NCBI GenBank assembly: GCA_016207825.1
Contig: JACQZI010000007.1
Span: forward strand, 186,001 to 250,000
DNA: 64,000 bases
Source of the DNA: Planctomycetota bacterium
GTDB lineage: Bacteria; Planctomycetota; MHYJ01; JACQXL01; JACQZI01
Direction of reading: 5' to 3'
Position numbers and translations under genes: made by a program
In this document: piece by piece, positions 16,090 through 62,981 of the stretch
How positions within the stretch are numbered: position 1 is the stretch's first letter
Layout of the letters: the number at the start of each line of letters is the position of its first letter
Notes under the pieces: model-generated
Told to the model about the DNA's origin: nothing
Databases searched by the model: none
Seen by the model: the letters and a program-made list of their open reading frames with translations, nothing else

Positions 16090-16217
16090 CAATTATTATG
16101 AAAGGAATAGTTGCCCAGACCGTAACATACTGTGCCTGCTAATATTTGATTTCTCCATTATCTCTTGCCTCGTTTTCTGGATTCATTTTTGCATAGGTAT
16201 ATACCACCGTTACTATC

Positions 16218-16481
16218 ATGGAGTCCCTCCGCATCTAAGATGGAGTCCCACCGCACTTAAGATGGAGCCTCTCCGCATTTGAGATGGGGTCTCTCTGCAT
16301 TTGGAATGGAGTCCCTCCGCATTTGGGATGGGGTCTCTCCGCATTTAAGATGGAGCCTCTCTGCATTTGAGATGGGGTCTCACCGCATCTGAGATGGGGC
16401 ATCACCGCATTTAAGATGGAGCCCCTCTGCATTTGCCATGGAGTCCCTCCGCATTTGAGATGGGGTCTCACCGTATTTATG
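16218..16481. repeat. Tandem array of twelve 22-bp palindromic units
   Basis: Twelve contiguous units of exactly 22 bases begin at 16218, 16240, 16262 and so on to 16460. The core reads ATGGAGTCCCTCCGCATTTG with variation (GGAG/GGGG, TCCC/CCTC/TCTC, CTCC/CACC). Each unit is an imperfect palindrome: GATGGAG pairs with CTC-CG-CATC. There are no unique spacers, so it is not a CRISPR. The period is not a multiple of three, so it does not encode a simple protein repeat. Confidence 0.9.
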
Positions 16482-16500
16482 AGTAGTTAGCCCTAAGTTT

Positions 16501-16524
16501 AGGGGGGAGTAGCACCACCCCCCT
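16501..16524. repeat. G6/C6 hairpin after the 22-bp array
   Basis: AGGGGGG at 16501-16507 can pair with CCCCCCT at 16518-16524 around a ten-base loop. Similar G/C-run hairpins accompany the second array near 62471-62533 and fill the intergenic region at 36590-37022. Confidence 0.55.
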
Positions 16525-16597
16525 GCCTTAAAACCTACTTATATTCGTTTTAATCCGCGTTTAATTCGTTTTTTAGGATTAAGGAAATGTTAGTTTA

Positions 16598-34228: not shown

Positions 34229-35614
34229 ATGACAGAAGATACGATAATTGCCGTGGCAACACCTGCCGGCTATTCGCTCGGGGCGGTTATCCGCCTTAGC
34301 GGTCCTTTGGCGCTAAAGCTCGTCCGGAAGGCATTCCGCCCGGCAAACGCCCTGCGCCTTAACCGCCGCAGTATTCAAGGCCAGCTTATTTTGGAATCTC
34401 CGGGCGTGCGCATTCCCGTTACATTATATATAATGAAAACCCCCGGCTCTTATACCGGGGAGGATATCGCGGAAATCCATACCTTTGGGGTGCCGCCGCT
34501 CCTTAAGATACTCCTCGATTATTTCATCTCCAAAGGCGCGCGTTTAGCCCAGCCGGGCGAATTCACCCGCCGGGCGTTCCTCAATAACCGGATGGATTTA
34601 ACCCAGGCGGAATCGGTCCTGGCTATCATCAAGGCGCGTAACGACCGCGAACTCTCCATGGCTGTCAATCAGCTAAAAGGCGATTTCTCCAATGAAACCC
34701 ACTGCCTGAATAAAACCATAAAAGACCTCTTAAGCCGCCTTGAGCTCTCGCTTGATTTCTCAGACCAGGATATCGAAATTATTAAGGATGGCGAGATAAG
34801 GAATTCCGTTGATAAGCTGATAAGGGAAATATCCGGCTTACTTAAAGGCGAGCAATCGAAAACCGTATTCAAGGAAGGCATCTCTCTGGTTATCTGCGGA
34901 AGGCCCAATGTGGGGAAATCCAGCCTCTTTAACCGACTCTTGAAAAAAGAGCGCGCCGTGGTCATGCCGCTTGCCGGCACCACCCGCGACGTTATCGAAG
35001 CGGACTTCAAAGTAAAAGGCCATGGCTACCGGCTCTTTGATACGGCAGGGCTGGGCAAAACAAACGATAAAACCGGCATCCAGGAAATCGCCGCCCGGCA
35101 AACCAAAGGGGTTATCGGTCAGGCGGATATGTTCTTATTCGTCATTGACGGGAGTCGGCAGGTTTGCGATGAAGACCTGAAAATACTGCGCCGCCTGCCG
35201 CCTGAAAGGGTCTTGCTCATTATCAATAAAAGCGACCTCGCCCAGCCTGCCTCGCCGTCAGGCGGGAAGGCAACTGATGAATCCGTGCGGCGTAAGTTAA
35301 AGTATAAAGGCATCATCTGCCGTGTTTCGGCGCTTAAGGGGAGCGGAATAACAGAACTGGCTAAACATTTGAAAGGCTTATTGAAAGAGAGTAAAACGGA
35401 TAAGTCATCGGCTCCCTATATCATCAGCGCCCGCTACCGTGAAAATCTAACACGTGCCTTGGACGCACTGAAGCGCGCGAAAAATACACCGTCAACAGAA
35501 CTCGTTGCCTTTGAACTGCGCGAGGCATTGAACCATATCGGAAATATCACCGGGGCAACTACGCCGGAGGATGTGTTGAATAATATATTCGCCAGGTTCT
35601 GCATAGGAAAGTAA
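34229..35614 (+). CDS. mnmE: tRNA modification GTPase MnmE
   Basis: With its partner MnmG it modifies uridine 34 of certain tRNAs. The 461-residue protein is complete: N-terminal tetrahydrofolate-binding domain (TIIAVATPAGYSLGAVIRLS and PGSYTGEDIAEIHTFG), helical domain, and G domain with G1 GRPNVGKSS near residue 224, TTRDV, DTAGLG and NKSD. The obligatory C-terminal motif is FCIGK. A short insertion after NKSDLAQP is encoded by a palindromic REP-like stretch near 35243-35275. The stop codon overlaps the first base of a gene-less palindromic element. Confidence 0.95.
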   Translation: MTEDTIIAVATPAGYSLGAVIRLSGPLALKLVRKAFRPANALRLNRRSIQGQLILESPGVRIPVTLYIMKTPGSYTGEDIAEIHTFGVPPLLKILLDYFISKGARLAQPGEFTRRAFLNNRMDLTQAESVLAIIKARNDRELSMAVNQLKGDFSNETHCLNKTIKDLLSRLELSLDFSDQDIEIIKDGEIRNSVDKLIREISGLLKGEQSKTVFKEGISLVICGRPNVGKSSLFNRLLKKERAVVMPLAGTTRDVIEADFKVKGHGYRLFDTAGLGKTNDKTGIQEIAARQTKGVIGQADMFLFVIDGSRQVCDEDLKILRRLPPERVLLIINKSDLAQPASPSGGKATDESVRRKLKYKGIICRVSALKGSGITELAKHLKGLLKESKTDKSSAPYIISARYRENLTRALDALKRAKNTPSTELVAFELREALNHIGNITGATTPEDVLNNIFARFCIGK

Positions 35615-35687
35615 CACACCCCCACCCCCCCTCTCCAGAGGGGAGTTTTTTAGTCCCCTCTAATAAGAGGGGATAAAGGGGTGTGTG
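35614..35687. repeat. Gene-less ACACACCCC...GGGGTGTGT palindromic element
   Basis: One half reads ACACACCCCCACCCCC-CC followed by CTCTCCAGAGGGGAG. The other half, inverted, reads TCCCCTCTAATAAGAGGGGA followed by TAAAGGGGTGTGT. The same half-elements flank the DUF559 gene 7.4 kb away at 43015-43116 and 43470-43502. Here the halves are separated by only about seven bases and enclose no gene. Confidence 0.78.
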
Positions 35688-35712
35688 ATTAAAGCGATAC
35701 GGCTTTTATTTA

Positions 35713-35740
35713 TTGACGCTGTGATAAAAAATCGTATCTT
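35713..35740 (+). promoter_or_regulatory. Possible promoter of tmk
   Basis: TTGACG at 35713-35718 and TATCTT at 35735-35740 have a 16-base spacer. A REP-like palindrome lies between it and the gene. Confidence 0.4.
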
Positions 35741-35759
35741 ATAGAGAGTTTTAAAGAAT

Positions 35760-35797
35760 TGTCCCGACCCCGCAAAGCGGGATCGGGACGTCCGATT
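35760..35797. repeat. REP-like GC-rich palindromic element
   Basis: GTCCCGACCCCGCAAAGCGG and GATCGGGACGTCCGATT form nested palindromes. It sits in the leader of tmk. Confidence 0.6.
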
Positions 35798-35822
35798 AAC
35801 ATTGATTGATGGTGGGGACGAA

Positions 35823-36431
35823 ATGGCTGCTAAATTTATTGTTATAGACGGGCCGGACGGCTGCGGAAAATCCACCCAGGCGAAACTGCTGGCAGGCTAC
35901 CTTAAGAAGAAACATTTTAAGGTGCTGAACCTGCGCGAGCCGGGCGGCACTCCGATAAGCGAGAAGATACGCCGTATCCTCCTTGACCCGGCAAACAGCC
36001 GTATGACTGTCCCGACAGAGCTCTTCCTTTACATGGCAAGCCGCGCGCAACTGGTGGATGAAGTAATCAAGCCGGCTCTTGATAAAGGCGTAATAGTCAT
36101 TTGCGGAAGGTTTTTATCATCCACGATTGTGTATCAGGGCATTGCCGGCGGCATTGGCAGAAAACTGGTGGAAGATATGGGCAGGATTGCCACCCAGGGA
36201 ACGGTGCCGGACTTAACCATCATATTGGATATCCATCCGGAAAAAGGATTAAAGCGCAAGAAGACTAAACCGGACCGGATGGAGAAAAAAGAAATAGCGT
36301 TTCATGCCAAGGTGCGGAAAGGATTCCTGAAGCTGGCAAAAGAAAACCCGGCAAGGTATAAGGTAATCCCGTCAACCGGCTCGATAAACTCCATCCACCA
36401 AAAGATTATCTCTCTTGTCGGTATTGGGTAA
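35823..36431 (+). CDS. tmk: Thymidylate kinase
   Basis: It phosphorylates dTMP to dTDP. From the ATG at 35823, preceded by GGGGACGA, it has 202 residues. The P-loop is GPDGCGKST, followed by LREPGGTPISEKIR, where the DR/LREPGG motif contacts substrate. The CGRFLSSTIVYQGI segment corresponds to the usual DRY/F-S-S-xAYQ motif. In the lid, KTKPDRMEKK lacks the usual arginine-rich pattern but keeps D-R-x-E. A TTG at 35802 is a possible but less likely start. Confidence 0.92.
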   Translation: MAAKFIVIDGPDGCGKSTQAKLLAGYLKKKHFKVLNLREPGGTPISEKIRRILLDPANSRMTVPTELFLYMASRAQLVDEVIKPALDKGVIVICGRFLSSTIVYQGIAGGIGRKLVEDMGRIATQGTVPDLTIILDIHPEKGLKRKKTKPDRMEKKEIAFHAKVRKGFLKLAKENPARYKVIPSTGSINSIHQKIISLVGIG

Positions 36432-36589
36432 AACCGTCAACGGGGTTAAACTAGATTGAATTAAATAAGCTCTCCCCCGGAATTAGCGAATAAACCCATT
36501 CCCATATTCTATAACTCTAAAACGGACTGAATCAAACACAACTTTTCCTGTTCCACGATTAAACGGGAAAAACTATTTAAACTAACCCG

Positions 36590-37022
36590 TTAATAACGAT
36601 ACGATACTACTCTGCCGAATTTAAGTCCCCCTTTCATATCTTATGGGGAATTATTGCGTTTAGGGCTAAAAAATAGGGGGTGGGGTATGGGTAGGTAATT
36701 AGACCTATACCCCTTGCGGATTCATAGGGTAGGGGGTGGGGGGAGGTATCCTACCTATCCCGGATGGGTATCCCGGTAATGCCGGACCTATATCCCAGCC
36801 CATAATCTGAAAAGGCCATATGGGGGGCGGGAAAATGGGATAGTCCTCCCGGAATAATGGGTTAGGGGTAGGGGGGAGGTATCCTACCTATGCCGGGGGA
36901 ATATCCGGCTAATGCGGTGATACTACCCCGCCTCAGGATGACAAGGAGAGGTATGGGTAGCGGATTCGTGGGGTAGCCATGGGGGAGAGGTATACTACCT
37001 ATCCCTCTCCCATACCCCTTAA
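36590..37022. repeat. Intergenic G/C-run region with imperfect long repeats
   Basis: No gene is visible in this roughly 430-base stretch. Two imperfect copies about 132 bases apart contain GGGGGGAGGTATCCTACCTA (near 36738 and 36871) followed by a CCGG-rich tail, and a third, partial copy reads GGGGGAGAGGTATACTACCTA (near 36980). AGGTATCCTACCT is itself palindromic. Multiple G3-G6 runs on one strand could form G-quadruplexes or strong hairpins. The stretch at 36432-36590 shows nothing. Confidence 0.6.
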
Positions 37023-37132
37023 GGAAAAACTGATTAAATGAGAATTTAAAAGATGATAGGAAACAGAATGCAGATTACAATGGTTCTCTAAATTTACGCG
37101 GGGACGTTAAATTCATCATGCACTGATTTTAC

Positions 37133-37160
37133 TTGACTTTTCGGGAAATATTGGTAAAAT
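37133..37160 (+). promoter_or_regulatory. Promoter of the TPR gene
   Basis: TTGACT at 37133-37138 and TAAAAT at 37155-37160 have a 16-base spacer. TTAGGAATAAT upstream of the ATG may serve as ribosome binding site. Confidence 0.55.
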
Positions 37161-37179
37161 TACTCTTAGGAATAATAAA

Positions 37180-37563
37180 ATGGTAAAGAAAAACGACAAT
37201 TTATTTTCCGATTTCGAGATGGCCCTCTACGAGGCGGCGGTCCGCTCCAATCCCAATAACGAGGAAGCCCTGCGCGCCCTCGGCTACCTCTACACCAAAA
37301 AGAGAAACCATACGAAAGCCCTGACCATAGACCGCAAACTCTGTTTCCTGCGTCCCGATGATTCGGTCGTCCATTATAACCTCGCCTGCAGCCTTTCCAA
37401 CCTGGGCAAAATCGAGGATTCGCTCGAAGCCCTTGAGATGGCGATACTTTTAGGCTATAGCGACGTACGCCATATGGAAAAAGACCCGGATTTGGATAAT
37501 ATCCGCAACGAACCGCGCTATCTCGAGATAGTGGAAAAGATGAAGGGAAAATCAAAGGCCTAG
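37180..37563 (+). CDS. Small TPR-repeat protein
   Basis: A 127-residue cytoplasmic protein with two to three tetratricopeptide repeats: NPNNEEALRALGYLYTKKRN, then PDDSVVHYNLACSLSNLGKI-EDSLEALEMAI, and a C-terminal half-repeat. The end (MEKDPDLDNIRNEPRYLEIV) is the common capping sequence of such TPR proteins. It probably acts as a protein-protein adaptor. It has its own promoter and no obvious functional neighbours. Confidence 0.82.
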   Translation: MVKKNDNLFSDFEMALYEAAVRSNPNNEEALRALGYLYTKKRNHTKALTIDRKLCFLRPDDSVVHYNLACSLSNLGKIEDSLEALEMAILLGYSDVRHMEKDPDLDNIRNEPRYLEIVEKMKGKSKA

Positions 37564-37564
37564 T

Positions 37565-37641
37565 TAGTTCATTGGTTCACAAGTTCAACTGTTCATCAGA
37601 TTGATTTTTTATAGTATCATCTGCTAAATCCGCCTAATCAA
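37565..37641. repeat. Fragments of two dispersed low-complexity repeats
   Basis: GTTCATTGGTTCACAAGTTC (37567-37590) resembles the words at 14610-14640. TCATCTGCTAAATCCGCCTA (37618-37637) matches the inverted repeats that flank the 155-residue unknown gene at 39567 and 40081. Confidence 0.55.
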
Positions 37642-37671
37642 CTCAATCGGCACCCCTACGAGTGCTCCCTG

Positions 37672-38106
37672 TTATTCGGGTGTCCCCGAAGCAAAGCGGA
37701 GCGGGGTGTACGAAATGATGCCTTTGTCAGCATCGACACGGATATGCGTGCCGGTGGGGATTTCTGAAATAAACTTTGGGCTTAGGTCGCAGACGAACGG
37801 AATCTTCGATAGTATCGCGCCTTCGGTCAAATTATAATCCGGCGCTTTTATGGTCACGAGAGCCGCCGGCGCGGCATGTTTCTTTACCAGCGTCATCAAG
37901 ACCACACAGCCCCCTGAAGAGCCCTTGGATTCCTTGAAAACGAGTATCTTCCCTTTAAGCGTTTTGCCTTTATTGGGATTGGATGGGGCGATGATTTCGC
38001 CGGTCTCTAAATCCACATCGCCCAGGAAGGAAAAGCTCTCTGGACAGATAAGGGCCTCGCCGGAGGCGGTGCCCCTGACAACCTTACGCACTTTATATTT
38101 GTTCAT
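37672..38106 (-). CDS. Aconitase X swivel domain subunit (DUF126)
   Basis: From the ATG at 38106 it has 144 residues. The swivel domain is seen as VRGTASGEALICPESFSFLG, DVDLETGEIIAP, LKGKILVFKESKGSSGG and the ILSKIPFV segment. It is the small subunit of aconitase X enzymes. In archaea the two-subunit form is phosphomevalonate dehydratase; other bacterial AcnX proteins act on cis-3-hydroxy-L-proline. The last dozen residues are encoded by a REP-like repeat. The large subunit gene lies upstream on the same strand, 142 bases away, with repeats between them. Confidence 0.85.
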   Translation of the reverse strand: MNKYKVRKVVRGTASGEALICPESFSFLGDVDLETGEIIAPSNPNKGKTLKGKILVFKESKGSSGGCVVLMTLVKKHAAPAALVTIKAPDYNLTEGAILSKIPFVCDLSPKFISEIPTGTHIRVDADKGIISYTPLRFASGTPE

Positions 38107-38119
38107 ATTTATACCACAT

Positions 38120-38262
38120 CCCACTCCTCCCGTCCCGCAAAGCGGGACGGGATTCGGGGACGCCCGATTATTTAAAATACCTGTAGGGGCGGACTCTCAC
38201 GAATCAGACAAATCACACTAATCATTCGTGCCATTCGTTCTATTCGTCTTATTCGTGTTCTA
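38120..38262. repeat. REP-like palindrome and ATTCGTG-type repeat between aconitase X subunits
   Basis: CCCGTCCCGCAAAGCGGGACGG (38127-38148) is a palindrome. Then CTCACGAATCAGACAAATCA and its inverted partner ATTCGTGCCATTCGTTCTAT (38196-38261) form a second palindromic block. The block runs into the end of the large-subunit gene. Confidence 0.6.
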
Positions 38263-39559
38263 CCAATCTCCCCTTCAAAGCACTTTCTATACATCTATCC
38301 GTATCGGCCAAAGCGGTATTGCATCCAATCAAATCTTTGACATAGCGCACCATCTTGACGCTATCCGTGACCATATTCCGGACATTCGGCACCTTTAATC
38401 CGTATTCACGGCAGGTCGATTGCCTCATATGGCTTTCCACCGGGCAGGTATCTGCCACCACCTTCGCACCGGCGGATTCTATGGTTTTGATATAGCCGGA
38501 ATATTCCGCCTGCTTTCTGGTCATGCGGTTCGTGCATATCCAGAAGCGGACATCTTTCCTGACGCGCCTGCCCGCCAGTTTCCGGGCGACGTATTCTATC
38601 TGCGCCAGGTTATAATGGGGACATCCGAGCGTGACGAAATCAATTTCCGCGCCCGGCTCAATATTATTCACCTGATTGTAGACATCATCTAAATCCTTTT
38701 CCCTGATTTCATAGGCGTCTTTGGGGACTTTGCCGTCTTTGAACGCCTCTTTCACGGTCCGCGCTTCCGGTGTAACGCCGGGGATATGGAAGAGCGTTAC
38801 CGAGCCGGAGGTTGCCAGAGCAGCGCCGAAGCCAATCAGGAAGTCGGTTCGTTGTAAAATGGAAGAGTTGTCAGTTGTTAGTTGTTGGCGGTTAGCTTTG
38901 GGTAATTGGATAACGGGGATATCGCTCCCAACTATTTTGCCTATAATAAATCCGAGGGCGCACCAGGCATCATAAGTCTTTAAGCGTTCGGGAGGAATCA
39001 TCACCTTAAATAGATGCGTGCCATAGCGGTTTTCAGGGAGGAGATATCCCATCAACGGATATTTTCCGGTCACGGCGGAGAAGCGGGTAAAGAGTCCGCC
39101 GCGGTTAGTCCGCGCGCCCAGGACCGAATTAAAATAAATAATCGCACTGCTTTCGACCGAGGCGATGTAACTGCCGAAAGGCGGGACGAATCCCAATAAT
39201 TGCGGGGTGCAGGTATAGGTTTCCAGAATGCCCATGGAACGGTGCGCCGGCTCGACCTCGGCCTGAAGCCGGGCGAGCTTTGCCGGTATGCCGGTAATAG
39301 AGGGTTTTTCCAAATCAGCGCAGAGCGTGGAGGTGGTGGTCGGCACACGAACCTTGGCGCCCCTTTTGGCGTAGCGGACGAGGTCCTCGATATCGCCGTA
39401 ATAGATGCCCATCTCCGCCGGGTAGTGGCAATAGGAGATATCGACTAAGCGCGGTGCATTGAACGCCTCGCCGAACTGGATGATGTAATCCATCGCCTCG
39501 GCAACGACCTTACCTTCAGCGCCGCCGCGCATCCGTTTTTCCGAATCAGTTAATTTCAT
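38249..39559 (-). CDS. Aconitase X catalytic subunit (DUF521)
   Basis: A 436-residue dehydratase subunit with family signatures: VDISYCHYPAEM, EVEPAHRSMGILE, LGCPHYNLAQI and CPVESHMRQ, the last two containing likely Fe-S cysteines. It works with the DUF126 swivel subunit. Candidate reactions are dehydration of phosphomevalonate (archaeal-type mevalonate pathway) or of a hydroxyproline; no neighbouring gene decides. A segment NRQQLTTDNSSILQ near residue 225 comes from an in-frame low-complexity DNA insertion (AACAACTAACAACTGACAAC). The C-terminal tail (LVEHE) lies within ATTCGTG repeat DNA. Confidence 0.88.
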   Translation of the reverse strand: MKLTDSEKRMRGGAEGKVVAEAMDYIIQFGEAFNAPRLVDISYCHYPAEMGIYYGDIEDLVRYAKRGAKVRVPTTTSTLCADLEKPSITGIPAKLARLQAEVEPAHRSMGILETYTCTPQLLGFVPPFGSYIASVESSAIIYFNSVLGARTNRGGLFTRFSAVTGKYPLMGYLLPENRYGTHLFKVMIPPERLKTYDAWCALGFIIGKIVGSDIPVIQLPKANRQQLTTDNSSILQRTDFLIGFGAALATSGSVTLFHIPGVTPEARTVKEAFKDGKVPKDAYEIREKDLDDVYNQVNNIEPGAEIDFVTLGCPHYNLAQIEYVARKLAGRRVRKDVRFWICTNRMTRKQAEYSGYIKTIESAGAKVVADTCPVESHMRQSTCREYGLKVPNVRNMVTDSVKMVRYVKDLIGCNTALADTDRCIESALKGRLVEHE

Positions 39560-39566
39560 AAAATTC

Positions 39567-39596
39567 TGTAAGCGGATTAAGCTGATTTAGCAGATA
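39567..39596 (+). repeat. Left terminal repeat of the 155-residue unknown gene
   Basis: TGTAAGCGGATT-AAGCTG-ATTTAGCAGAT matches, inverted, the sequence at 40081-40110. Confidence 0.72.
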
Positions 39597-39614
39597 ACTT
39601 TAAAATCAAGTTAA

Positions 39615-40061
39615 TTATTCTTCTATAACAATTCTTTTATTTTCATCCCATTTTTCTCTATATATTTTCCCTCCGGCCGTAGCAAAATACATATCTCCAT
39701 TCTTGAATTGTATATCCCATGGTTCATAGCCTGCACTATTGCCGAAGGTTTGAATTTTAATACCCCCTTCAAACTCAAACACCAAATCTGCTGTTATAAT
39801 ATCATTATTAAAATCGATTATCTTTTTGCCTTTTAGCATTTCCATGACATTTTTCGCCACATTCACGGGTTTCGGCAAACCATAAATATGCCCCTCATCA
39901 CCACTTGCTTGCCTGATTTGTTTGGTATCAATAATTCTCCACGGGGTACTAACCCTGACAAATGCATCTTCGTTAAATACAAATAACCAATCCAATGATT
40001 CTTTTTGAAATATAATTTTAGTGATTTCTCGCCCTATAAACAATGCTTTATCTATTTTCAT
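39615..40061 (-). CDS. Hypothetical small beta-rich protein between inverted repeats
   Basis: From the ATG at 40061, preceded by AAGGGCGAAA, it has 148 residues (155 from the upstream alternative start at 40082). The pattern resembles small all-beta proteins of the DUF6188 type (IGREITKIIFQKESLDWLFV, ADLVFEFEGGIKIQTFG, YEPWDIQF), but I am not certain of the family. It fills the space between acnX and the CocE-like gene exactly, with inverted TGTAAGCGGATTTAGCAGAT repeats at both edges and somewhat higher A+T than its neighbours. This suggests a cassette insertion. Confidence 0.6.
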   Translation of the reverse strand: MKIDKALFIGREITKIIFQKESLDWLFVFNEDAFVRVSTPWRIIDTKQIRQASGDEGHIYGLPKPVNVAKNVMEMLKGKKIIDFNNDIITADLVFEFEGGIKIQTFGNSAGYEPWDIQFKNGDMYFATAGGKIYREKWDENKRIVIEE

Positions 40062-40080
40062 CTTTTCGCCCTTAATAATC

Positions 40081-40110
40081 ATCTGTTTAATCTGCTAAAT
40101 CCGCTTACAA
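40081..40110 (-). repeat. Right terminal repeat of the 155-residue unknown gene
   Basis: The complement reads TTGTAAGCGGATTTAGCAGA followed by TTAAACAGAT, nearly identical to the left repeat at 39567-39596 but in opposite orientation. Confidence 0.72.
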
Positions 40111-40114
40111 AAAC

Positions 40115-41821
40115 TCATGGTTTAATCTCCGGCCCCAACGCCTTTTCCGGAACCACGTCCACGACCAATGCGCTTGGATAATCTTTCGTATGATAAACCG
40201 CCTGATGGGCAAGGCGGGGTTTCGTTTCATACGCTTGGTCGGTATCGGTATTCAGATGCGGAGAAAATTTAGGGACGGCGCTGGAGGAGATTTCCAGCCG
40301 TATCTGGTGGCCTTTCAGGAAGCGCATCCCGGTCGCCCACATATCAACCGTCACTTTATAAACTTTGCCGGGAGAGAGCCATTCCGGCTTTTCCAGTGAG
40401 TTCCTGAATTCCGCGCGCTGGATGCCATCGCAGAGTTGAATCGCCTTGCCATTGGGCCAGACATCCACGAGCTTGCCGGTGAAATCCGTGCCCTTAACAT
40501 CCGTGGAGACATAAAGCTCGGCAAACACCCTGCCGCAGATAATCACATCCTTCTTTAACGGCGGCGTGGAATAGACCAGGACATCCATCCGGCGCTCTAT
40601 CGCCTGCTGGTCGCAGGCTTCGCCCAGCTGTAGGCTTATCGGGTCGGTGACATACGGCACCGGGTCTTTGGGGTCGTAGGTATACCTATCCGTCTTTTCG
40701 GTAGTGGAAGGTTTTTTCTCGCTCATCACCCCGTCGCCGAGCAATGAATTGGCATTGCCGTTGCTATGTAGATAGAATTCTGTGGTAACTGCCTTGGGAA
40801 TGGGCCAATCGGAAACGCCGTGCCATTTATTTTCTCCCATGATAAATATTCGTCCTCTCGGTTCGCGCTTTTTATCATACACTTCTTCGGTAAGATGGCG
40901 GGCGAAGAATTTAAGGATGATGGAATTCATGTCTATGAGCGCCTTGGGGCCGAAATCTATTTCGCCGACCTTGCTCGAGACATTTAACTTATGCGCCCAG
41001 CAGCCGATAATCAGTTTCTGCGCATCGCGCGCCTTGGGTGTTTTGGCGCGGGCCCTCATTCCTGGGAAATTCTTATAGGTGGAAATGCCGTCATCATCAT
41101 ACCAGCCGCAGATATGCAAAGCCGGAATATTAATTTTATTCCATAGATGCATATAAGAAACCTCTTTCCACCACTTATCAAAGGTCGGGTGGTCCATCCA
41201 GTTTTGCCAGGTTCGGCTTTGCATGCCGACCGCCTCATCGAGTTTGCGCAGAGGCAGATAAGTATAAAATTTATTCCAGTTGATATTGGCGAGGTTCTGG
41301 TTGGTCTTGCCGAAGACCATAAGCCCCCAGACAATCATATTCCAGAAGAAGGCGCCGTTCTGGTAAGGGACGTTGATGACCGGGTCGGGCAAAGCTACAA
41401 GCGGGACAATGGCCTTCAGTTTGGGATGGAACGAAGCGGCGCCCATCCAGGAGGTGTAGCCTTCGTAACTGCCGCCCATCATGCCGATATTGCCGTTTGA
41501 GAAATCCTGTTTGGCGAGCCAGGAGATGGTATCAAAGGCGTCCTTTTTCTCATAGCGGAAGGGCTCCCATTCGCCTTCGCTGTCGTGGCGTCCGCGGCAA
41601 TCTTGGAAGGCGTAAACAAACCCGCGCTGGGCGAACCAGACTTTCGCGACCAGGCGCAGGGAATCGTGGTTGCCATAAGGCGTGCGGCTTAGGATTACCG
41701 GAAAAGGGCCTTTGCCCTTGGGGAGGTAGATGTCGGTGGAAAGCCTGACCCCGTCCCGCATCCTTATTTTGATATCAATCCTTTGCTCCACTTCGTATTT
41801 CTTAGTTAAGCTTGTTATCAT
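40115..41821 (-). CDS. CocE/NonD-family alpha/beta hydrolase (X-Pro dipeptidase-like)
   Basis: The start at 41821 is preferred because GAAGGTGAT lies seven bases upstream, giving 568 residues. The catalytic serine is in GGSYEGY, and other family segments are RMRDGVRLSTDIYLPKG, PYGNHDS and CRGRHDSEGEWEPF. The C-terminal jelly-roll domain contains KGHQIRLEISSSAVPKF. Relatives hydrolyse acyl, ester or prolyl-peptide bonds. There is no signal peptide, so it is cytoplasmic. It is followed by repeats and the dipeptidase remnant. Confidence 0.88.
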   Translation of the reverse strand: MITSLTKKYEVEQRIDIKIRMRDGVRLSTDIYLPKGKGPFPVILSRTPYGNHDSLRLVAKVWFAQRGFVYAFQDCRGRHDSEGEWEPFRYEKKDAFDTISWLAKQDFSNGNIGMMGGSYEGYTSWMGAASFHPKLKAIVPLVALPDPVINVPYQNGAFFWNMIVWGLMVFGKTNQNLANINWNKFYTYLPLRKLDEAVGMQSRTWQNWMDHPTFDKWWKEVSYMHLWNKINIPALHICGWYDDDGISTYKNFPGMRARAKTPKARDAQKLIIGCWAHKLNVSSKVGEIDFGPKALIDMNSIILKFFARHLTEEVYDKKREPRGRIFIMGENKWHGVSDWPIPKAVTTEFYLHSNGNANSLLGDGVMSEKKPSTTEKTDRYTYDPKDPVPYVTDPISLQLGEACDQQAIERRMDVLVYSTPPLKKDVIICGRVFAELYVSTDVKGTDFTGKLVDVWPNGKAIQLCDGIQRAEFRNSLEKPEWLSPGKVYKVTVDMWATGMRFLKGHQIRLEISSSAVPKFSPHLNTDTDQAYETKPRLAHQAVYHTKDYPSALVVDVVPEKALGPEIKP

Positions 41822-41842
41822 AAAATCACCTTCTAATCTTTT

Positions 41843-41932
41843 AACACGAATCACACGAACAAAGACAAATCACACAAATAAGAAAAGATAATTACATTCG
41901 TGATATTCGTCTCATTTGTGTCATTCGTGTTT
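41843..41932. repeat. Gene-less inverted repeat with ATTCGTG words
   Basis: The left arm AACACGAATCACACGAACAA is answered by the right arm ATTCGTCTCATTTGTGTC followed by ATTCGTGTT in inverted orientation, around an A-rich centre of about 15 bases. A related block lies at 38196-38261. Confidence 0.65.
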
Positions 41933-41941
41933 ATCTGCAAT

Positions 41942-42995
41942 TTATTTAAGCACTTCTCTTATCACCCTCAGCCAATTCCCGCCGAGGATTTTCTGGATTT
42001 CATCCTTATGGAATCCGCGTTTCACCAGTTCAATCGTTATATTAGGAAGTTTGGCGGCATCTTCCAATCCTACGGTCACGCCGTTATAGCCATCGAAATC
42101 CGAGCCGAGGCCGACGTAATCTAAACCGAACTTCTCGGCGATATAGGCGATGTGGTCGACGACATCCGGCACGCGGCAGATCATCTTCCTGCGGGCGATT
42201 TCCTGGAAGGTCAAATTTCCTCCGATGATAAATTCAGGGAGATACATACATCCCGACGACGCCCTTCCGGCGGGCGATTTCTTTTATCTGGTCATCATCA
42301 ATATTACGCAGGATATCCCGGAATTTCCTCACCCCCGTATGGGAGCAGATTACCGGACCCTTGGCAATCTTCATCGCATCCTTAAAGCCGGGCCGTGCCA
42401 GGTGGACGATATCCAATATCATATTCAGGCGGTTGATTTCCCTGATGACCTTTTTACCGAGGGCGGTCAGCCCGCGCGGGTTATCCACCCGGACGCCGTC
42501 CGCCAGCTCATTGGCATGGTTTTGGGTCAGGCTGATTGACCGTACTCCCAGATGGTGAAACATCTCCAGTAGGCGCAGGCTTTTATCCAAGCATATCCCG
42601 CTTTCGATATCTACCAGGAGTCCTTTCTTGCCTTTGGCAAGCTCTTTTAAATCTTTGGAGGAGCGGATGAAAACTATTTTTCCGTTGCTATCGCTGACCG
42701 CTTTTCTCATGGCGGTGAGCATTTTCAGGGCGTAAAGCGTGGCGTCCGCGCCCTGGTAAAAAGGCGGTGTATAGATTGCCATGAACTGGAGGTCAACGCC
42801 GCCTTTCACCATGCGGAGGAAATCCATATGCTGCCAGTCATTATCCGATTTGGCTTTCTCCCCCCAGCGAAGGGCCTTGGGGCCGGGTGAAAGGAAATCA
42901 CCGTCGCGCGACAAGGTTTTACCGAAGGAATCGGCGTGGCCGTCGACAAGGATTGATTGATGGTGCAGTTTAATAATTTCGGCGCGCGTCAACAT
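41942..42995 (-). pseudogene. Membrane dipeptidase (M19 family), split by a frameshift
   Basis: The first 253 codons (from the ATG at 42995, preceded by GGAG) carry the family motifs HADSFGKTL (metal-binding H-x-D), LLVDIESG and ICSHTGVR. They end abruptly in GVVGMYVSP at 42234. The remaining 101 codons, in another frame from 42247, continue the same family sequence (MYLPEFIIGG, then DYVGLGSDFDG). Removing one copy of a duplicated four-base TGTA at the junction restores GVVGMYLPEF. This is therefore either a recent inactivating duplication, an assembly error or, less likely, recoding. M19 enzymes cleave dipeptides with zinc. Confidence 0.82.
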
Positions 42996-43014
42996 TATAC
43001 ACTCCGCGATATTC

Positions 43015-43116
43015 ACACACCCCTGCCCATCCCCGATTGGGTCGGGACTCCGCTATCGCTCCGCTTTTTAGAGGGGATTAACTATACTCCCCTCTTGAGA
43101 GGGGGTTGGGGTGTGT
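43015..43116. repeat. Left repeat block of the DUF559 cassette
   Basis: It contains ACACACCCCTGCCC and, after an intervening REP-like piece, TTAGAGGGGATTA. The inverted half TCCCCTCTTGAGAGGGGG with TTGGGGTGTGT then follows at 43088-43116. It also encodes the last dozen residues of the DUF559 protein. Confidence 0.75.
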
Positions 43117-43464
43117 TATTTCTCTAATCTTTCCTTCTATCGTACTTAAAACACCTTCTATGTTTTTCTTCATATCTATGTCCAAAAACCTCAGCACAGA
43201 AAAACCCAACGACTCCAGCTTTCTCTGCCTTATTTCATCTTCATCTGTTTTTCCGCTATGGCTTTCCCCGTCGATTTCAATAATCAGTTTCAAGCACGGG
43301 CAGAAAAAGTCAACAATATACTCATCAATCGGCTTTTGCCTATGGAAATCATATCCCAGCATCTGCCGCTGTTTAAGCTTCTGCCACAATAATATTTCTG
43401 ATAATGTTCCAGTTTTCCGAAGTTGACAAGCCAGTTTTTTAAATTTGGGGTTATAATAAATCAT
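43078..43464 (-). CDS. DUF559 protein, predicted PD-(D/E)xK-like endonuclease
   Basis: A 128-residue protein of the DUF559/Vsr-like fold: KLACQLRKTGTLSEILLWQK, YDFHRQKPIDEYIVDFFC, LIIEIDGESH and ESLGFSVLRF. The D...E-x-D/E arrangement is that of a restriction-like nuclease. Activity is not established for most members. The gene lies between inverted ACACACCCC/GGGGTGTGT hairpin repeats, and its C-terminal PNPLSRGEYS is read from the repeat. A gene-less copy of the repeat lies at 35614-35687. I read it as the only gene of a small mobile-like cassette. Confidence 0.85.
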   Translation of the reverse strand: MIYYNPKFKKLACQLRKTGTLSEILLWQKLKQRQMLGYDFHRQKPIDEYIVDFFCPCLKLIIEIDGESHSGKTDEDEIRQRKLESLGFSVLRFLDIDMKKNIEGVLSTIEGKIREITHPNPLSRGEYS

Positions 43465-43469
43465 TAATT

Positions 43470-43502
43470 ACACACCCCTACCCCTCTTATTAGAGGGGAT
43501 TA
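43470..43502. repeat. Right repeat of the DUF559 cassette
   Basis: ACACACCCCTACCCCTCTTA followed by TTAGAGGGGATTA contains a perfect CCCCTCT/AGAGGGG stem. It is inverted relative to 43088-43116 and overlaps the stop codon of the DUF192 gene. Confidence 0.78.
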
Positions 43503-43952
43503 ATCAGACTTTATCTTTTTGATGGAATCCGGGATAAAGACCTTATCGCCTTCTTTGATGTTATTACGTTTGAACCAGCCTTTATTCATTTCCAAGGCGT
43601 ATTTAACCGCTACCCGTGACCAGGTGGTATCTTCGGTTAAAGGCTTCATATCAGCTATCTGGGTAATAGTGCCATCCTCTTTTATAAAAGCGATTGAAAG
43701 CGGAATAAGCGTGTCTTTCATCCAGAAACGGACGGGTGTTTCTTCCGGATAAAGGAAAATCATGCCGCTGTTTTCAGGTAGGTTTTTCCGGTGCATCAGG
43801 CCCAACTCCCTTTGGTCGGCGGTGGCGGCGACTTCCACATTGATTGCCTTGCCGTTAATGACCAGTCCTTCTTGGGAGACGTCTTTACCCTGGCAGGCAA
43901 TAGGTAGAACTGCTAATGTAAAGCTTAAAAATAAAATATAAAAATGTTTCAT
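43500..43952 (-). CDS. DUF192 lipoprotein
   Basis: A 150-residue protein. The signal peptide ends with the lipobox PIAC, so it is lipid-anchored. The DUF192 domain is clear: VEVAATADQRELGLMHRKNL, GMIFLYPEETPVRFWMKDTLIPLSIAFI, then the ALEMNKGWFKRNNIKEGDKV end. The family is widespread and of unknown role. The upstream DUF2284 gene ends two bases before it, so they form an operon. The TAA lies in the right repeat of the DUF559 cassette. Confidence 0.88.
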   Translation of the reverse strand: MKHFYILFLSFTLAVLPIACQGKDVSQEGLVINGKAINVEVAATADQRELGLMHRKNLPENSGMIFLYPEETPVRFWMKDTLIPLSIAFIKEDGTITQIADMKPLTEDTTWSRVAVKYALEMNKGWFKRNNIKEGDKVFIPDSIKKIKSD

Positions 43953-43953
43953 G

Positions 43954-44496
43954 TCAATTAATCAGCACGAGGCTGTACCAATTCACCTCGTCGGATTTGG
44001 ATTTAAGGGTTTTCAAAGGCAACCCTTGCTTATGGGCGGTGGCAAAGACATCTATCCCGACCGCCTGCATGGCCGGGCGGGCCTTTTTTTGGGCGCGGCA
44101 TGGCCTGGGAAAAGAGCACTTTTTACAAACCGCGCAATCGGAAAAGCTGAAGGCGAAGTAATTGCCGTCCACATAAGCCGCCTGCTCTATTTTATACGAG
44201 ATATCGTGGGAAAGCTTTTTACCACTAGGTCCCCGTAGTCCCGATTTGCGGGACGGAGCGGGGTCACGGGTATGGATAAGCAATGCCTTTTTATAATATT
44301 TTATGATGCGGGCAAAATCGGAGACGGTAATGGCGCCGGGGGCGGAGGGACAAGTCCAGTTATTGCCCCAGCCGGTGCAGCCGAAACGGCATTTGAGTAT
44401 TGTGCGCGGGTCAAGGACAACATCCCGGGCATTAATCAGGACCGCGTGGAGTGCGCCCTCTTTTCTGGCAAGCGCGGCGTATCGGTTTAAATTCAT
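43954..44496 (-). CDS. DUF2284 cysteine-rich metal-binding protein
   Basis: From the ATG at 44496 it has 180 residues; a longer frame upstream has no ribosome binding site. Two cysteine groups are visible: C-x3-CTGWGNNWTC and CAVCKKCSFPRPCR, the pattern expected for bound Fe-S clusters or zinc. Its role is unknown; related proteins are common in anaerobes. A stretch RDPAPSRKSGLRGPSGKK near residue 78 is encoded by a REP-like palindrome at 44229-44270, an apparent in-frame insertion. Confidence 0.8.
   Translation of the reverse strand: MNLNRYAALARKEGALHAVLINARDVVLDPRTILKCRFGCTGWGNNWTCPSAPGAITVSDFARIIKYYKKALLIHTRDPAPSRKSGLRGPSGKKLSHDISYKIEQAAYVDGNYFAFSFSDCAVCKKCSFPRPCRAQKKARPAMQAVGIDVFATAHKQGLPLKTLKSKSDEVNWYSLVLIN
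44229..44270. repeat. REP-like element inside the DUF2284 gene
   Basis: GTCCCGATTTGCGGGACGGA and its flanks carry the same words as intergenic REP-like copies, but lie within a coding region and keep the frame. Confidence 0.6.
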
Positions 44497-44640
44497 TAAG
44501 CGGATAATACCACATAAAAAAGGCGAAGTAAATAAATTAACGGCTCTATAATACCCCCGGCGCCGCCCTAAAGTTATATAATAATTTTCTTGCTTGACTG
44601 AGGGATATATTATTAAATTAGATACTTTATGTACACGGAT

Positions 44641-44681
44641 TAAGCCCCGCTCCACTGCGTTACGGGGACACCCGATTGATA
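44641..44681. repeat. REP-like element upstream of yajC
   Basis: AGCCCCGCTCC-x-CTGCGTTACGGGG followed by ACACCCGATT is a member of the dispersed family, in the leader of the yajC-secDF operon. Confidence 0.55.
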
Positions 44682-44742
44682 ATGAATCTGGAATGGGGCT
44701 GATAAAACTAATCAGCTTGCTCTTATTAAGAAAGGTGATTTT

Positions 44743-45069
44743 ATGTTTAATTCTATGATATTTTTAGCCCAGGACGCGGCTCCAAGCGGCTCTTCTGCTT
44801 TAATCAGCATGCTCCTGCCTTTTGCCCTGCTTTTCGGTTTAATGTACCTCTTGCTCATAAGACCCCAGAATAAAAAAGAAAAGATGCGTCAGGAAATGAT
44901 TAACAGCCTCCAGAAAAACGACCACGTCATCACCAGCGGAGGAATGTTCGGAATTGTTTCCAATATCAAGGATGATGAAATCTCGCTTAAAGTGGATGAG
45001 GATTCCAACGTAAAGATACGCGTTTCCAAAAACGCCATTGTAGGCGTAATAAAACGCGCGAACCCCTAG
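44743..45069 (+). CDS. yajC: Preprotein translocase accessory subunit YajC
   Basis: A 108-residue protein with one membrane helix (LLPFALLFGLMYLLLIRPQ), followed by the hallmark RPQNKKEKMRQEMINSLQKN, DHVITSGGMFGIV and a beta-rich tail. It associates with SecDF, whose gene starts 36 bases downstream. GAAAGGTGAT precedes the ATG. Confidence 0.95.
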   Translation: MFNSMIFLAQDAAPSGSSALISMLLPFALLFGLMYLLLIRPQNKKEKMRQEMINSLQKNDHVITSGGMFGIVSNIKDDEISLKVDEDSNVKIRVSKNAIVGVIKRANP

Positions 45070-45105
45070 AATTAAATAGTTCGCTCTATAAAGGAATAAT
45101 TATTT

Positions 45106-47826
45106 ATGAAAGAAACTCTCAAATGGCAATTGCTCCTGGTTCTTATCATAACCGCCATCGCCGGTTACTTCGCTTACCCATCTGACGATAAAATGTTCTT
45201 TAAGGAAGGCGAATGGTTCGAAGGCTGTAAAATCCAGTTGGGACTCGACCTTCAGGGAGGAAGCGAGTTGATACTCGGTTTCCAACAGCAGGAAACGATG
45301 AGCTCGGAAAGCTTAAAATCCGGGGTCGATTCCGCCCGCAACATTATCGAACGCCGTATCAACAGCTTCGGATTGAAGGAACCGCGTATCCAACCTTACG
45401 GCAACCAGCTTTTGGTCCAGCTACCTGGAGTTGACCCAAGCGAAATAGACAATATAAAAAAGCTGCTTATCACCACCGGCAAGCTGGAATTCAAACTGGT
45501 GGCAAAACAATCCGTTATAGATGTATATGAAAAACGCTACCCGGCAGTTCCTCCCGGTTACCAGTGGTATGACGAAACTCCGGTAAAGGATAAGCCGGTT
45601 GAACACCTCCTGCTTGAGGAAAAAACCATCATCAGCGGTGAAAATGTCGTTGATGCCGGATATAAAGTGCTGGACCCGATGGAAGGAATCGTGGTTACCT
45701 TAAAACTGGATCTGGTCGGTTCGCATATTTTTGAAGATGTCACCGGAAAGCATAATGAAAAGACATCCGACCAAAGAAGGCTGGCAATTTTGCTGGATAG
45801 CAAAGTGGTTTCAGCCCCGAGTATCAGAAGCAAGATAACCGGCGGAGAAGCCGTTATTACACACGGGGGAAAAGGCGGATTCCCGGAAACAGAGGCGCGC
45901 GATTTATCCATGATACTGCGTTCGGGAAGCCTACCCGGAAACCTGGAAGTCAAAAGCGAAAACACATTAGGGCCATCTCTCGGTGCGGATGCGATTAACA
46001 GAAGCGTCACCTCTTTTACCCTGGCAATAATCGTGGTTGCCCTATTCATGATTGTTTATTACCATCTGGCAGGAATGATTTCGGTCCTCGCACTTTTAAT
46101 AAACGCTATCCTGCTTTTAGGCATACTTTCCTTTTTCTCAGCAACCCTGACACTCCCCGGCATCGCGGGCATCGTCTTAACCATGGGTATGGCGGTCGAT
46201 TCCAATATCATTTTCTACGAAAGAATCAGGGAAGAGCAGGAAAAAGGCAAGACCACGGTGCAATCGTTTGAAGGCGGGTTCGGCAAGGCGTTGGTAACGG
46301 TCATAGACGCCAACCTGACGACCCTGGTTGCCGGATTGGTATTGTGGTATTTCGGAACAGGTCCGATACGCGGATTTGCGGTTACACTTTCCGCAGGCAT
46401 TCTCACTACGCTTTTCAGCGGATATTTCGCCACCAAACTCATGGTCCAGTTCGTCATTGAAAGCGGAATAGCCAAGAAAATCACCATGTTAAAGATACTG
46501 ACCAAGCCTAATATCAACTTTATGAAAATCAGCCATTATTTTATCAAGTTTTCGGTAGTTTGCATCTTGTTGGGAATGGTTGCTTTTTATATGAGAGGAA
46601 TAAAGACCAACACCGCTTACGGGGTGGATTTCACGGGCGGGACGGTTTTGAACCTACACTTCAAGGAAAAGGTCAATATTGCTGATGTCCGGACGACCAT
46701 AAAGAACATTACCGTAACGGATGCCAAAACCAACGCACCTGCCCCCAAATACCCGGACGCGGAAGTATTAAGCGTCATGCCACCGGTCACGGATACCGGC
46801 GCGGGCGGGATAAAATCCATGTTCTCCAAGGCCGGGCAGATGTCGGAAGAATTCCAGATACGTACCCGATATGTGCGCACGGAAAAAGGCGTTTTGGAGT
46901 TGAAAAACGACCTCCTTGCGAAATTTTCCGATAAAGTCGCGCAGGAAACCATCACTCTCATCACCTCAACCAACAAGGCCGGTTATAAGCTGATGATGGA
47001 ATTAAACCTGGGTAAACAGGTTGGGGTTAACGAGTTAAAAGTGAAACTCGCCGAGCTTGCCAAGCGCAATAAAAAGCAAGAACCGCTGGTGATTATACCG
47101 GAGGCATCCGAGGAAATAACCGATACAACATCGGCACATTTTGAAATATATTTCAGGGAAGACGAACCCGTGCAGTGGGAACGGGCACTGCGAGCCAAAG
47201 AAGGTCTGGATTTACCGAGAGGCGTTTTCCCGGTTGCCGGCATGATAGATACCATGGTTTCCAAAAGTTTGCAACAAAACGCGGTTATTGCCATCATCCT
47301 TTCGTGGATATGCATGCTCATTTACGTCGCCTTCCGGTTCGAACTGAAATACGGACTGGCGGCGGTAGTTGCGCTGGTGCACGACGTTTTATTCGCCCTA
47401 GGCGCGACGGCGGCATTCAACCTGATTGTCCCGGACAGCTGGGGTATTAGTGTCGAAATAAACTTTACCTCAGTGGCGGCGCTTATGACCATCATCGGTT
47501 ATTCGGTCAACGACACCATCGTCATCTTCGACCGCGTCAGGGAAAACATGACGGAAATGAAACGCCAGCCGCTGGAAGCGATTTTAAACGCCAGCGTCAA
47601 CCAGACGCTCGGCCGTACAATTATAACATCATTGACTGTTTTCTTCACGGTGGTGATACTCTTCCTGGTCACGGCAACAAGCGGCGCCGGGATCGTTAGC
47701 TTTGCCTTCCCGATGGTAATCGGCACGATCGCCGGCTCTTATTCCACCATCTTTATCGCCTCGCCGTTTGTCAAGGCTTGGGGCGGAAGCGGGGAAAAGA
47801 AGCCGCAAGCAGAGAAAAAAGACTGA
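45106..47826 (+). CDS. secDF: SecD-SecF fusion, protein-export membrane protein
   Basis: It uses the proton or sodium gradient to finish export through SecYEG. The 906 residues contain a full SecD (LGLDLQGGSELIL, the periplasmic P1 domain, then MAVDSNIIFYERIREE near residue 370), fused to a full SecF. The SecF part shows AYGVDFTGGTVL near residue 505 and SVNDTIVIFDRVREN near residue 805. Twelve membrane helices are expected. Separate SecD and SecF are the rule in many bacteria; fusions are known in Firmicutes, Bacteroidota and Planctomycetota. Confidence 0.95.
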   Translation: MKETLKWQLLLVLIITAIAGYFAYPSDDKMFFKEGEWFEGCKIQLGLDLQGGSELILGFQQQETMSSESLKSGVDSARNIIERRINSFGLKEPRIQPYGNQLLVQLPGVDPSEIDNIKKLLITTGKLEFKLVAKQSVIDVYEKRYPAVPPGYQWYDETPVKDKPVEHLLLEEKTIISGENVVDAGYKVLDPMEGIVVTLKLDLVGSHIFEDVTGKHNEKTSDQRRLAILLDSKVVSAPSIRSKITGGEAVITHGGKGGFPETEARDLSMILRSGSLPGNLEVKSENTLGPSLGADAINRSVTSFTLAIIVVALFMIVYYHLAGMISVLALLINAILLLGILSFFSATLTLPGIAGIVLTMGMAVDSNIIFYERIREEQEKGKTTVQSFEGGFGKALVTVIDANLTTLVAGLVLWYFGTGPIRGFAVTLSAGILTTLFSGYFATKLMVQFVIESGIAKKITMLKILTKPNINFMKISHYFIKFSVVCILLGMVAFYMRGIKTNTAYGVDFTGGTVLNLHFKEKVNIADVRTTIKNITVTDAKTNAPAPKYPDAEVLSVMPPVTDTGAGGIKSMFSKAGQMSEEFQIRTRYVRTEKGVLELKNDLLAKFSDKVAQETITLITSTNKAGYKLMMELNLGKQVGVNELKVKLAELAKRNKKQEPLVIIPEASEEITDTTSAHFEIYFREDEPVQWERALRAKEGLDLPRGVFPVAGMIDTMVSKSLQQNAVIAIILSWICMLIYVAFRFELKYGLAAVVALVHDVLFALGATAAFNLIVPDSWGISVEINFTSVAALMTIIGYSVNDTIVIFDRVRENMTEMKRQPLEAILNASVNQTLGRTIITSLTVFFTVVILFLVTATSGAGIVSFAFPMVIGTIAGSYSTIFIASPFVKAWGGSGEKKPQAEKKD

Positions 47827-62533: not shown

Positions 62534-62606
62534 GACCCTGATATCCTGCCCATCCTGATTTATATCTCCCCCCATTTTAATTGAAATCTCCCCTCCCCTT
62601 GGCCAC

Positions 62607-62826
62607 TAATAGGAGCCCTATGGTGAAGTAATAGGAATCCTATGGTGTGATAATAGGAACCCTATAGCGAAGTAATAGGAATCCTAATGTGTGGTAATAG
62701 GAGCCCTAAGGTGAAGCAATAGGAATCCTAAAGAGTGATAATAGGAACCCTATAGAAAGCTAATAGGAATCCTATGGTGTAGTAATAGGAGCCCTATGGT
62801 GAAGTAATAGGAATCCTAGAAGAAAA
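62607..62826. repeat. Tandem array of ten 22-bp palindromic units with 88-bp higher order
   Basis: Ten contiguous 22-base units begin at 62607, 62629, 62651 and so on to 62805. The core is TAATAGGAGCCCTATGGTGA, and ATAGG-AGC-CCTAT is palindromic. The variable centre cycles GAGCCC, GAATCC, GAACCC, GAATCC and then repeats, so units 1, 5 and 9 match, as do 3 and 7 and all even units. There are no unique spacers. Bases 62827-62981 contain nothing recognisable. Confidence 0.9.
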
Positions 62827-62981
62827 TAATCTCCCTACCCCCAGAAATTCATCCACCCCTTGCGGGAAAAATAGTAAATTTTATATGGGCTATAATCCGG
62901 AATCGGGATGATTCATCTTTGTCGGCTACTAAATAGAGGGTTACGAAAGGCGGCAATCACCGGAGTGAGCGTTATCTGGAA

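Follow-up and report, generated by a model that had tools for sequence, protein, structure and literature searches.

A segment in the genome of a Planctomycetota bacterium is probably a mobile element, in which a DUF559 nuclease gene lies between two triplex-type repeat units, and of which the gene-less units elsewhere in the genome are non-autonomous copies. To our knowledge, such folded repeats have been recognised for 30 years in many bacteria, including Escherichia coli, with no known mover. Among open-access PMC papers, none was found that connects them with DUF559, although a report in a subscription journal may exist. A first-pass annotation of this DNA had read the locus as a minimal mobile unit that has non-autonomous copies, and this interpretation is supported by an empty orthologous site and by the terminal repeats linked to DUF559 genes elsewhere; its further suggestion, that the nuclease may be the mover in the manner of RAYTs and REPs, stays an inference. 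It missed that the repeats are intrastrand triplex motifs, which earlier literature had already described with no mover.

The features of the locus are listed in Table 1; the window is the whole stretch analysed (64,000 nucleotides of a host genome, G000, of 2.89 Mb). Both the gene and its inverted hairpin repeats were found where the annotation had placed them, as was the gene-less copy on the mnmE stop codon, the last base of which is the first base of the element. The right repeat had also been said to overlap the DUF192 stop codon (43500-43502); unit A only abuts it. The predicted protein matches the PF04480 profile with 111.5 bits against a curated cut-off of 20.6, and therefore meets family membership. 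The gene is present as a single copy in the host genome, and its 3' end runs into the adjoining unit, giving the protein tail THPNPLSRGEYS. Units B and C together form a feet-outward pair resembling the gene-less element.

Table 1. Features of the DUF559 locus and of the nearby gene-less element (window coordinates).
Feature	Position	Strand	Description
DUF559 (YcjD-like, Vsr-fold) nuclease gene, 128 aa	43078-43464	-	PF04480, E 2.4e-32
Triplex unit A, start-codon side	43470-43499	-	hairpin CCCCTCT-AATA-AGAGGGG, loop TA, foot GGGGTGTGT (43470-43478, directed at the gene); reads ACACACCCC-TA-CCCCTCTTATTAGAGGGG-A
Triplex unit B, stop-codon side	43088-43116	+	hairpin CCCCTCTTGAGAGGGG, foot GGGGTGTGT (43108-43116, directed at the gene); reads TCCCCTCTTGAGAGGGGG-TT-GGGGTGTGT
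Unit C, damaged	43015-43076	-	foot ACACACCCC at 43015-43023; another repeat (43039-43064) in place of one hairpin arm
Gene-less pair of triplex units	35614-35686	35614-35643 on -, 35655-35685 on +	feet outward
Segment in G000, missing at the orthologous site of G001	42999-43499	.	blastn and global alignment

The palindrome CCCCTCTNNNNAGAGGGG occurs in 11 exact copies in the host genome versus none for the reversed control pattern; it is therefore not a product of chance, and the repeat is a many-copy one. These copies share a common anatomy of hairpin, short linker, and foot GGGGTGTGT, and the units stand singly or as inverted pairs with feet outward or inward. No Rfam match was obtained for window positions 35500-43600. 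Other G/C-rich palindromes (CCCGACnnnGTCGGG, GGGTCGGGACTCCGC, and more) are seen within the hairpins or linkers of triplex units, where they replace an arm or a loop (window 43039-43064, and L007, L010, and L011). The window also contains two long 22-bp tandem-repeat arrays at 16174-16525 and 62585-62848, with 11 and 9 overlapping register copies, the latter array with TAATAGGANCCTATGG-like units, and a 76-nt G-rich repeat that is present three times at 36707-37026 with spacings of 133 and 111 nt.

Each unit consists of a C/G hairpin and a G-rich foot that can fold back and add a third strand to the hairpin. The sequence of the foot is a mirror image of the purine arm in the same hairpin (arm/foot: AGAGGGG/GGGGTGT, AGGAGGG/GGGAGGT, GGGAGAGGG/GGGTGAGGG, GGAGGGG/GGGGTGG, and AAGGGGG/GGGGGTT), and the mirroring matches the pairing rule of a purine third strand in antiparallel orientation, with G on G-C and A or T on A-T. 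Two units of the window meet this rule, namely CCCCTCT.aata.AGAGGGG.ta.GGGGTGT and CCCCTCTT.GAGAGGGG.gtt.GGGGTGTG. When hairpins were picked blind to the foot and free of register, with equal maximisation on shuffled tails, the fraction of possible triads was 0.86 for the units' own tails and 0.75 for shuffled tails, with a maximum of 0.77 in 1000 shuffles. From the mirroring and the excess of triads, the repeats of the window are identified as the intrastrand triplex motifs named BoxC, PIT, or TM; the assignment is made by the sequence rule, without folding data for the window sequence. Like those of the window, the published motifs have a C-rich arm, a loop, a G-rich arm, a short loop, and a second G-rich stretch, and often occur as inverted pairs. 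Oligonucleotides of the E. coli motif, TM_ECO, form triplexes in vitro (PMC4666352). However, the published motifs were described without a mobility gene (PMC4666352), whereas the present units bound an element that carries a nuclease, and the present family is broader, with many further unit types (GGGGTGTGT, GGGAGGTGT, GGGGGTT, and others). In genomes with many copies of DUF559 (L158, L173, L157, and L156; family f50) the unit is of the type TGTCCCCCGCTGGCGGGGG..GGGGGTGGA, in which C in the arm lies opposite T in the foot, as would suit a T on C-G triad.

One genome of the same genus, G001, was in the search; it is 56% complete and was compared over 0.89 Mb only. Its DUF192 protein is 83% identical to that of the window, and at its orthologous site the M19 peptidase start follows directly after the DUF192 stop (TAAAATAATG). 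In blastn, window positions 40094-42998 and 43500-46653 align to the adjacent G001 bases 3080 and 3078, leaving a single G001 base unaligned, as in the global alignment. The break between 42998 and 43500 means that about 500 bp, the gene along with its units, are carried by one genome and missing from the other. A filled and an empty site, the pair by which the annotation had proposed to check mobility, thus exist within one genus, and presence or absence of the gene-bearing segment is established at one orthologous site; it is not polarised as gain or loss. A DUF559 gene kept at this place in relatives without the repeats would have refuted the proposal, and the relative that lacks DUF559 here also lacks the repeats here. 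The element at 35614-35686 was not found after mnmE in G001, and, where flanks were comparable, the gene-less elements at L003, L007, and L012 were also absent from that genome. One gene-less site (L011) is common to both genomes in a shortened form. In addition, G001 carries gene-less feet-to-feet pairs (L303:3521 and L337:7902), which show the gene-bearing arrangement in its bare state. No clear target-site duplications were found in the E. coli and G000/G001 junctions inspected, where inverted units are present. An empty site sought among Azospirillum strains was not found, since the seven best-matching records span the whole query, gene included.

The association of DUF559 with these units is specific and wide. 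A profile search of 392 Planctomycetota genomes, in which flanks were not used, identified 62 genomes that have DUF559 with E no higher than 1e-20. Under the strict triplex rule, a unit faces the gene on both sides at 45 of 80 Planctomycetota DUF559 loci versus 0 of 75 neighbouring genes; the hairpin-plus-foot rule gave 47 of 80 loci versus 1 of 74 neighbours. Among 58 loci found by similarity, mostly in Bacteroidota and also in Verrucomicrobiota, Nitrospinota, Ignavibacteriota, Lentisphaerota, and CPR, 30 have paired facing units under the strict rule, versus 1 of 300 neighbouring genes, in a non-Planctomycetota sample that over-represents close relatives of the query. In a motif-free test, which matched the left flank to the reverse-complemented right flank, 42 of 72 small DUF559 genes exceeded the 99th percentile of 436 control genes. 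Such units are likewise present at plasmid- or chromid-borne DUF559 loci of Sphingomonas, Azospirillum, Pseudanabaena, and Deinococcus. Matching terminal repeats at DUF559 genes elsewhere, which the annotation had left to be sought, are thus found far above the level of neighbouring genes. About one-sixth of the Planctomycetota DUF559 loci (the unbiased set) have no detectable unit.

Repeats spread through the genome without a link to DUF559 would also have counted against the proposal. The repeats are indeed genome-wide, yet DUF559 is present in 23 of 28 genomes with at least three window-type (T1) palindromes versus 39 of the remaining 364 (Fisher 4e-16, which is only a guide because genomes are not independent). 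Five repeat-rich genomes have no full DUF559 match (G001, G070, G107, G217, and G353). One of these, G353 (L184), contains 44 exact window-type palindromes and no DUF559 match, and G107 has 16 together with only a weak DUF559 remnant of 100 aa. In the 28 repeat-rich genomes, paired units were found at none of 29 Y1 (RAYT-type) transposase loci and none of 28 PF05635 loci; the corresponding count for DUF559 in Planctomycetota was 47 of 82 loci. On the PF05635 result, this family, which has 14 copies in the host genome, was rejected as an alternative small-gene passenger. Unit type co-varies with the DUF559 tree, and foot with hairpin: foot class changes 19 times on the tree upstream of the gene (shuffled mean 39, minimum 33) and 15 times downstream (shuffled mean 54, minimum 48).

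DUF559 and its units also lie within genes. In G275, HMG-CoA lyase carries DUF559 with in-frame units at residues 73-262, leaving about 6 host residues unaligned; in G365, HsdM carries them at 391-539, with about 3 host residues unaligned; and HsdR is broken in this manner in four genomes. In the HsdR and HsdM insertions the feet point outward, which shows that orientation is not fixed. The HsdR of G006 (L017:289-3309) has an in-frame DUF559 unit and, elsewhere in the protein, apparent gene-less in-frame repeats encoding PSPQPSPSGRG-type peptides. In G381 and G357 (L154 and L165), an N6/N4 DNA methylase has an intein that contains DUF559, here without flanking repeats and placed as a homing nuclease would be.

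The AlphaFold model of the window protein has a pLDDT of 90. In Foldseek it ranks the Neisseria gonorrhoeae DUF559 protein 3hrl first and then the homing endonuclease I-Bth0305I, the catalytic domain of which is matched at E 3e-4, so that the homing-endonuclease fold is met; PvuRts1I and Vsr are weaker. Residues E23, D52, E63, D65, and H69 are invariant in 26 DUF559 sequences, which suggests an active nuclease, although this is predicted from conservation without a nuclease assay. YcjD was earlier assigned to the PD-(D/E)XK superfamily (PMC1189080), and DUF559 was filed with the EDxHD homing endonucleases in a cyanobacterial study (PMC9403480). It shares with these EDxHD or Vsr-like enzymes (I-Bth0305I; cited in PMC9403480) the fold and the occurrence inside an intein; unlike them, most DUF559 genes are free-standing between repeats and not in introns or inteins. 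Only two weak phage matches were found by tblastn, and DUF559 is therefore not part of a phage gene set.

In E. coli, the DUF559 gene ycjD (b1289) lies 168 bp from TM_ECO no. 9 (1,351,204-1,351,239), and the motif beside it is identical to that entry of Table 1 in Holder et al. 2015 (PMC4666352), where 23 TM_ECO copies were listed in strain K-12. TM loci were reported to be unusually variable between strains and were treated as instability hotspots, and no mobility activity was found beside them (PMC4666352). The ycjD locus also varies between strains (PMC12817139). YcjD of K-12 thus resembles the window gene in family, in proximity to a BoxC/TM unit, and in lying at a strain-variable locus, and differs in that a single intact unit is present, on one side only, and that no function is known. 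At this locus, sapF-fabI (L264, L273, L274, and L377), either ycjD or the eefRABCD efflux operon is found depending on E. coli lineage, with TM_ECO no. 9 there; the repeat is unmentioned in the eef paper (PMC12817139). Four of the five K-12 inverted pairs (Table 1 of PMC4666352) are feet-inward, with 16-27 bp between. At fepB-entC, at least 80% of the TM-pair query is covered in 2752 of 5395 matching E. coli genomes, and a strain with 99.3% identity in the surrounding sequence lacks a 186-bp segment. At hrpB-mrcB, E. coli 2011C_3361 (L380) has a 64-bp deletion running loop to loop between a TM hairpin and its inverted partner, which leaves one chimeric hairpin. The variable segment in E. coli extends 10-60 bp past the units.

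That the nuclease itself does the moving is inference only, as there is neither a nuclease assay nor an observed transposition. One possible scheme is that DUF559 recognises the folded unit, probably single-stranded during replication or repair, and nicks or cuts at the foot, which would let gene-bearing and gene-less units both move. Homing, with a cut followed by copying through the repeats, may be how the gene enters an existing feet-facing pair. There may be two routes, 1) REP/RAYT-like transposition in which single strands move in folded form, and 2) homing of the gene into units already in place, and both may act. A transposition-like step for the units is favoured by the repeat-free sites in G001, and homing for the gene by the intein cases and the fold. 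The system would work in a manner similar to REP/RAYT, with a Vsr-type PD-(D/E)XK nuclease replacing the HUH transposase. Like REP/BIME and RAYT (PMC3733652, PMC3116915), it has dispersed palindromes in inverted pairs, one or few nuclease genes per genome flanked by inverted units, and a foot motif that co-varies with the nuclease. However, the REP mover is an HUH tyrosine enzyme and not DUF559 (Vsr/PD-(D/E)XK fold), the GTAG/CGTC foot tag of REPs is absent here, where the foot is GGGGTGTGT and its relatives, and only the present unit is a triplex motif.

It is rather unlikely, but cannot be dismissed, that DUF559 is solely a free-standing homing endonuclease, which targets pre-existing triplex repeats and is copied into feet-facing pairs, while the repeats spread otherwise, by an unknown transposase, replication slippage, or horizontal transfer. 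The nearest solved fold after 3hrl and the use of DUF559 as the nuclease of an intein agree with such a role, and the feet-to-feet pairs of G001 would be its empty target. The empty sites of G001 are nevertheless free of repeats, so that a homing gene would need an earlier repeat insertion, and homing alone is also opposed by the tracking of unit type with the DUF559 tree, by DUF559 with its units in genes such as HMG-CoA lyase, and by the lack of any other linked mover, including RAYT.

A RAYT-like (Y1) or other transposase that disperses the repeats with DUF559 as a passenger appears very improbable, even though REP palindromes elsewhere are tied to RAYTs (PMC3733652) and Y1_Tnp genes occur in 23 of the 28 repeat-rich genomes: RAYT is disfavoured as the mover by the absence of paired units at its loci, the sole Y1_Tnp match of the host genome is 94 aa long with flanks lacking these repeats, and the units have no REP tags. 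Equally improbable is a role in host repair or defence, in which DUF559 would process triplex or hairpin DNA and would co-occur with such structures because it removes or restricts them; this would suit the Vsr-like fold and a weak likeness to mREase_II in a defence library (E 4e-7), but would leave unexplained why units flank the gene on either side, why there is an insertion at the window site, and why copies lie in unrelated genes. Hairpins next to stop codons are common, and the palindromes that flank this short gene could be imagined as ordinary terminators or hairpins with a regulatory function. This reading is hardly tenable and was rejected because the palindromes belong to a multicopy family, the third-strand foot co-varies with the hairpin, and copies lie within reading frames; the units are also rare at neighbouring genes, and PIT elements acted neither as promoters nor as terminators in previous studies cited in PMC4666352. 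The preferred reading therefore remains a mobile element bounded by triplex units.

Overall, DUF559 is a strong candidate mover for the BoxC/PIT/TM repeats. It is a real possibility, put forward tentatively and still short of being the expected outcome, that a lone Vsr-type PD-(D/E)XK nuclease moving triplex-ended DNA constitutes a new transposition class, from which the BoxC/PIT/TM repeats of E. coli, Neisseria, cyanobacteria, and many others originated. The proposed mover is concrete and testable in E. coli K-12, where the gene (ycjD), the TM_ECO copies, and strain polymorphism are all present. If true, this would assign a role to DUF559, which is very widespread and of unknown function, and would add a type of mobile element independent of HUH, DDE, and serine or tyrosine recombinase chemistry.
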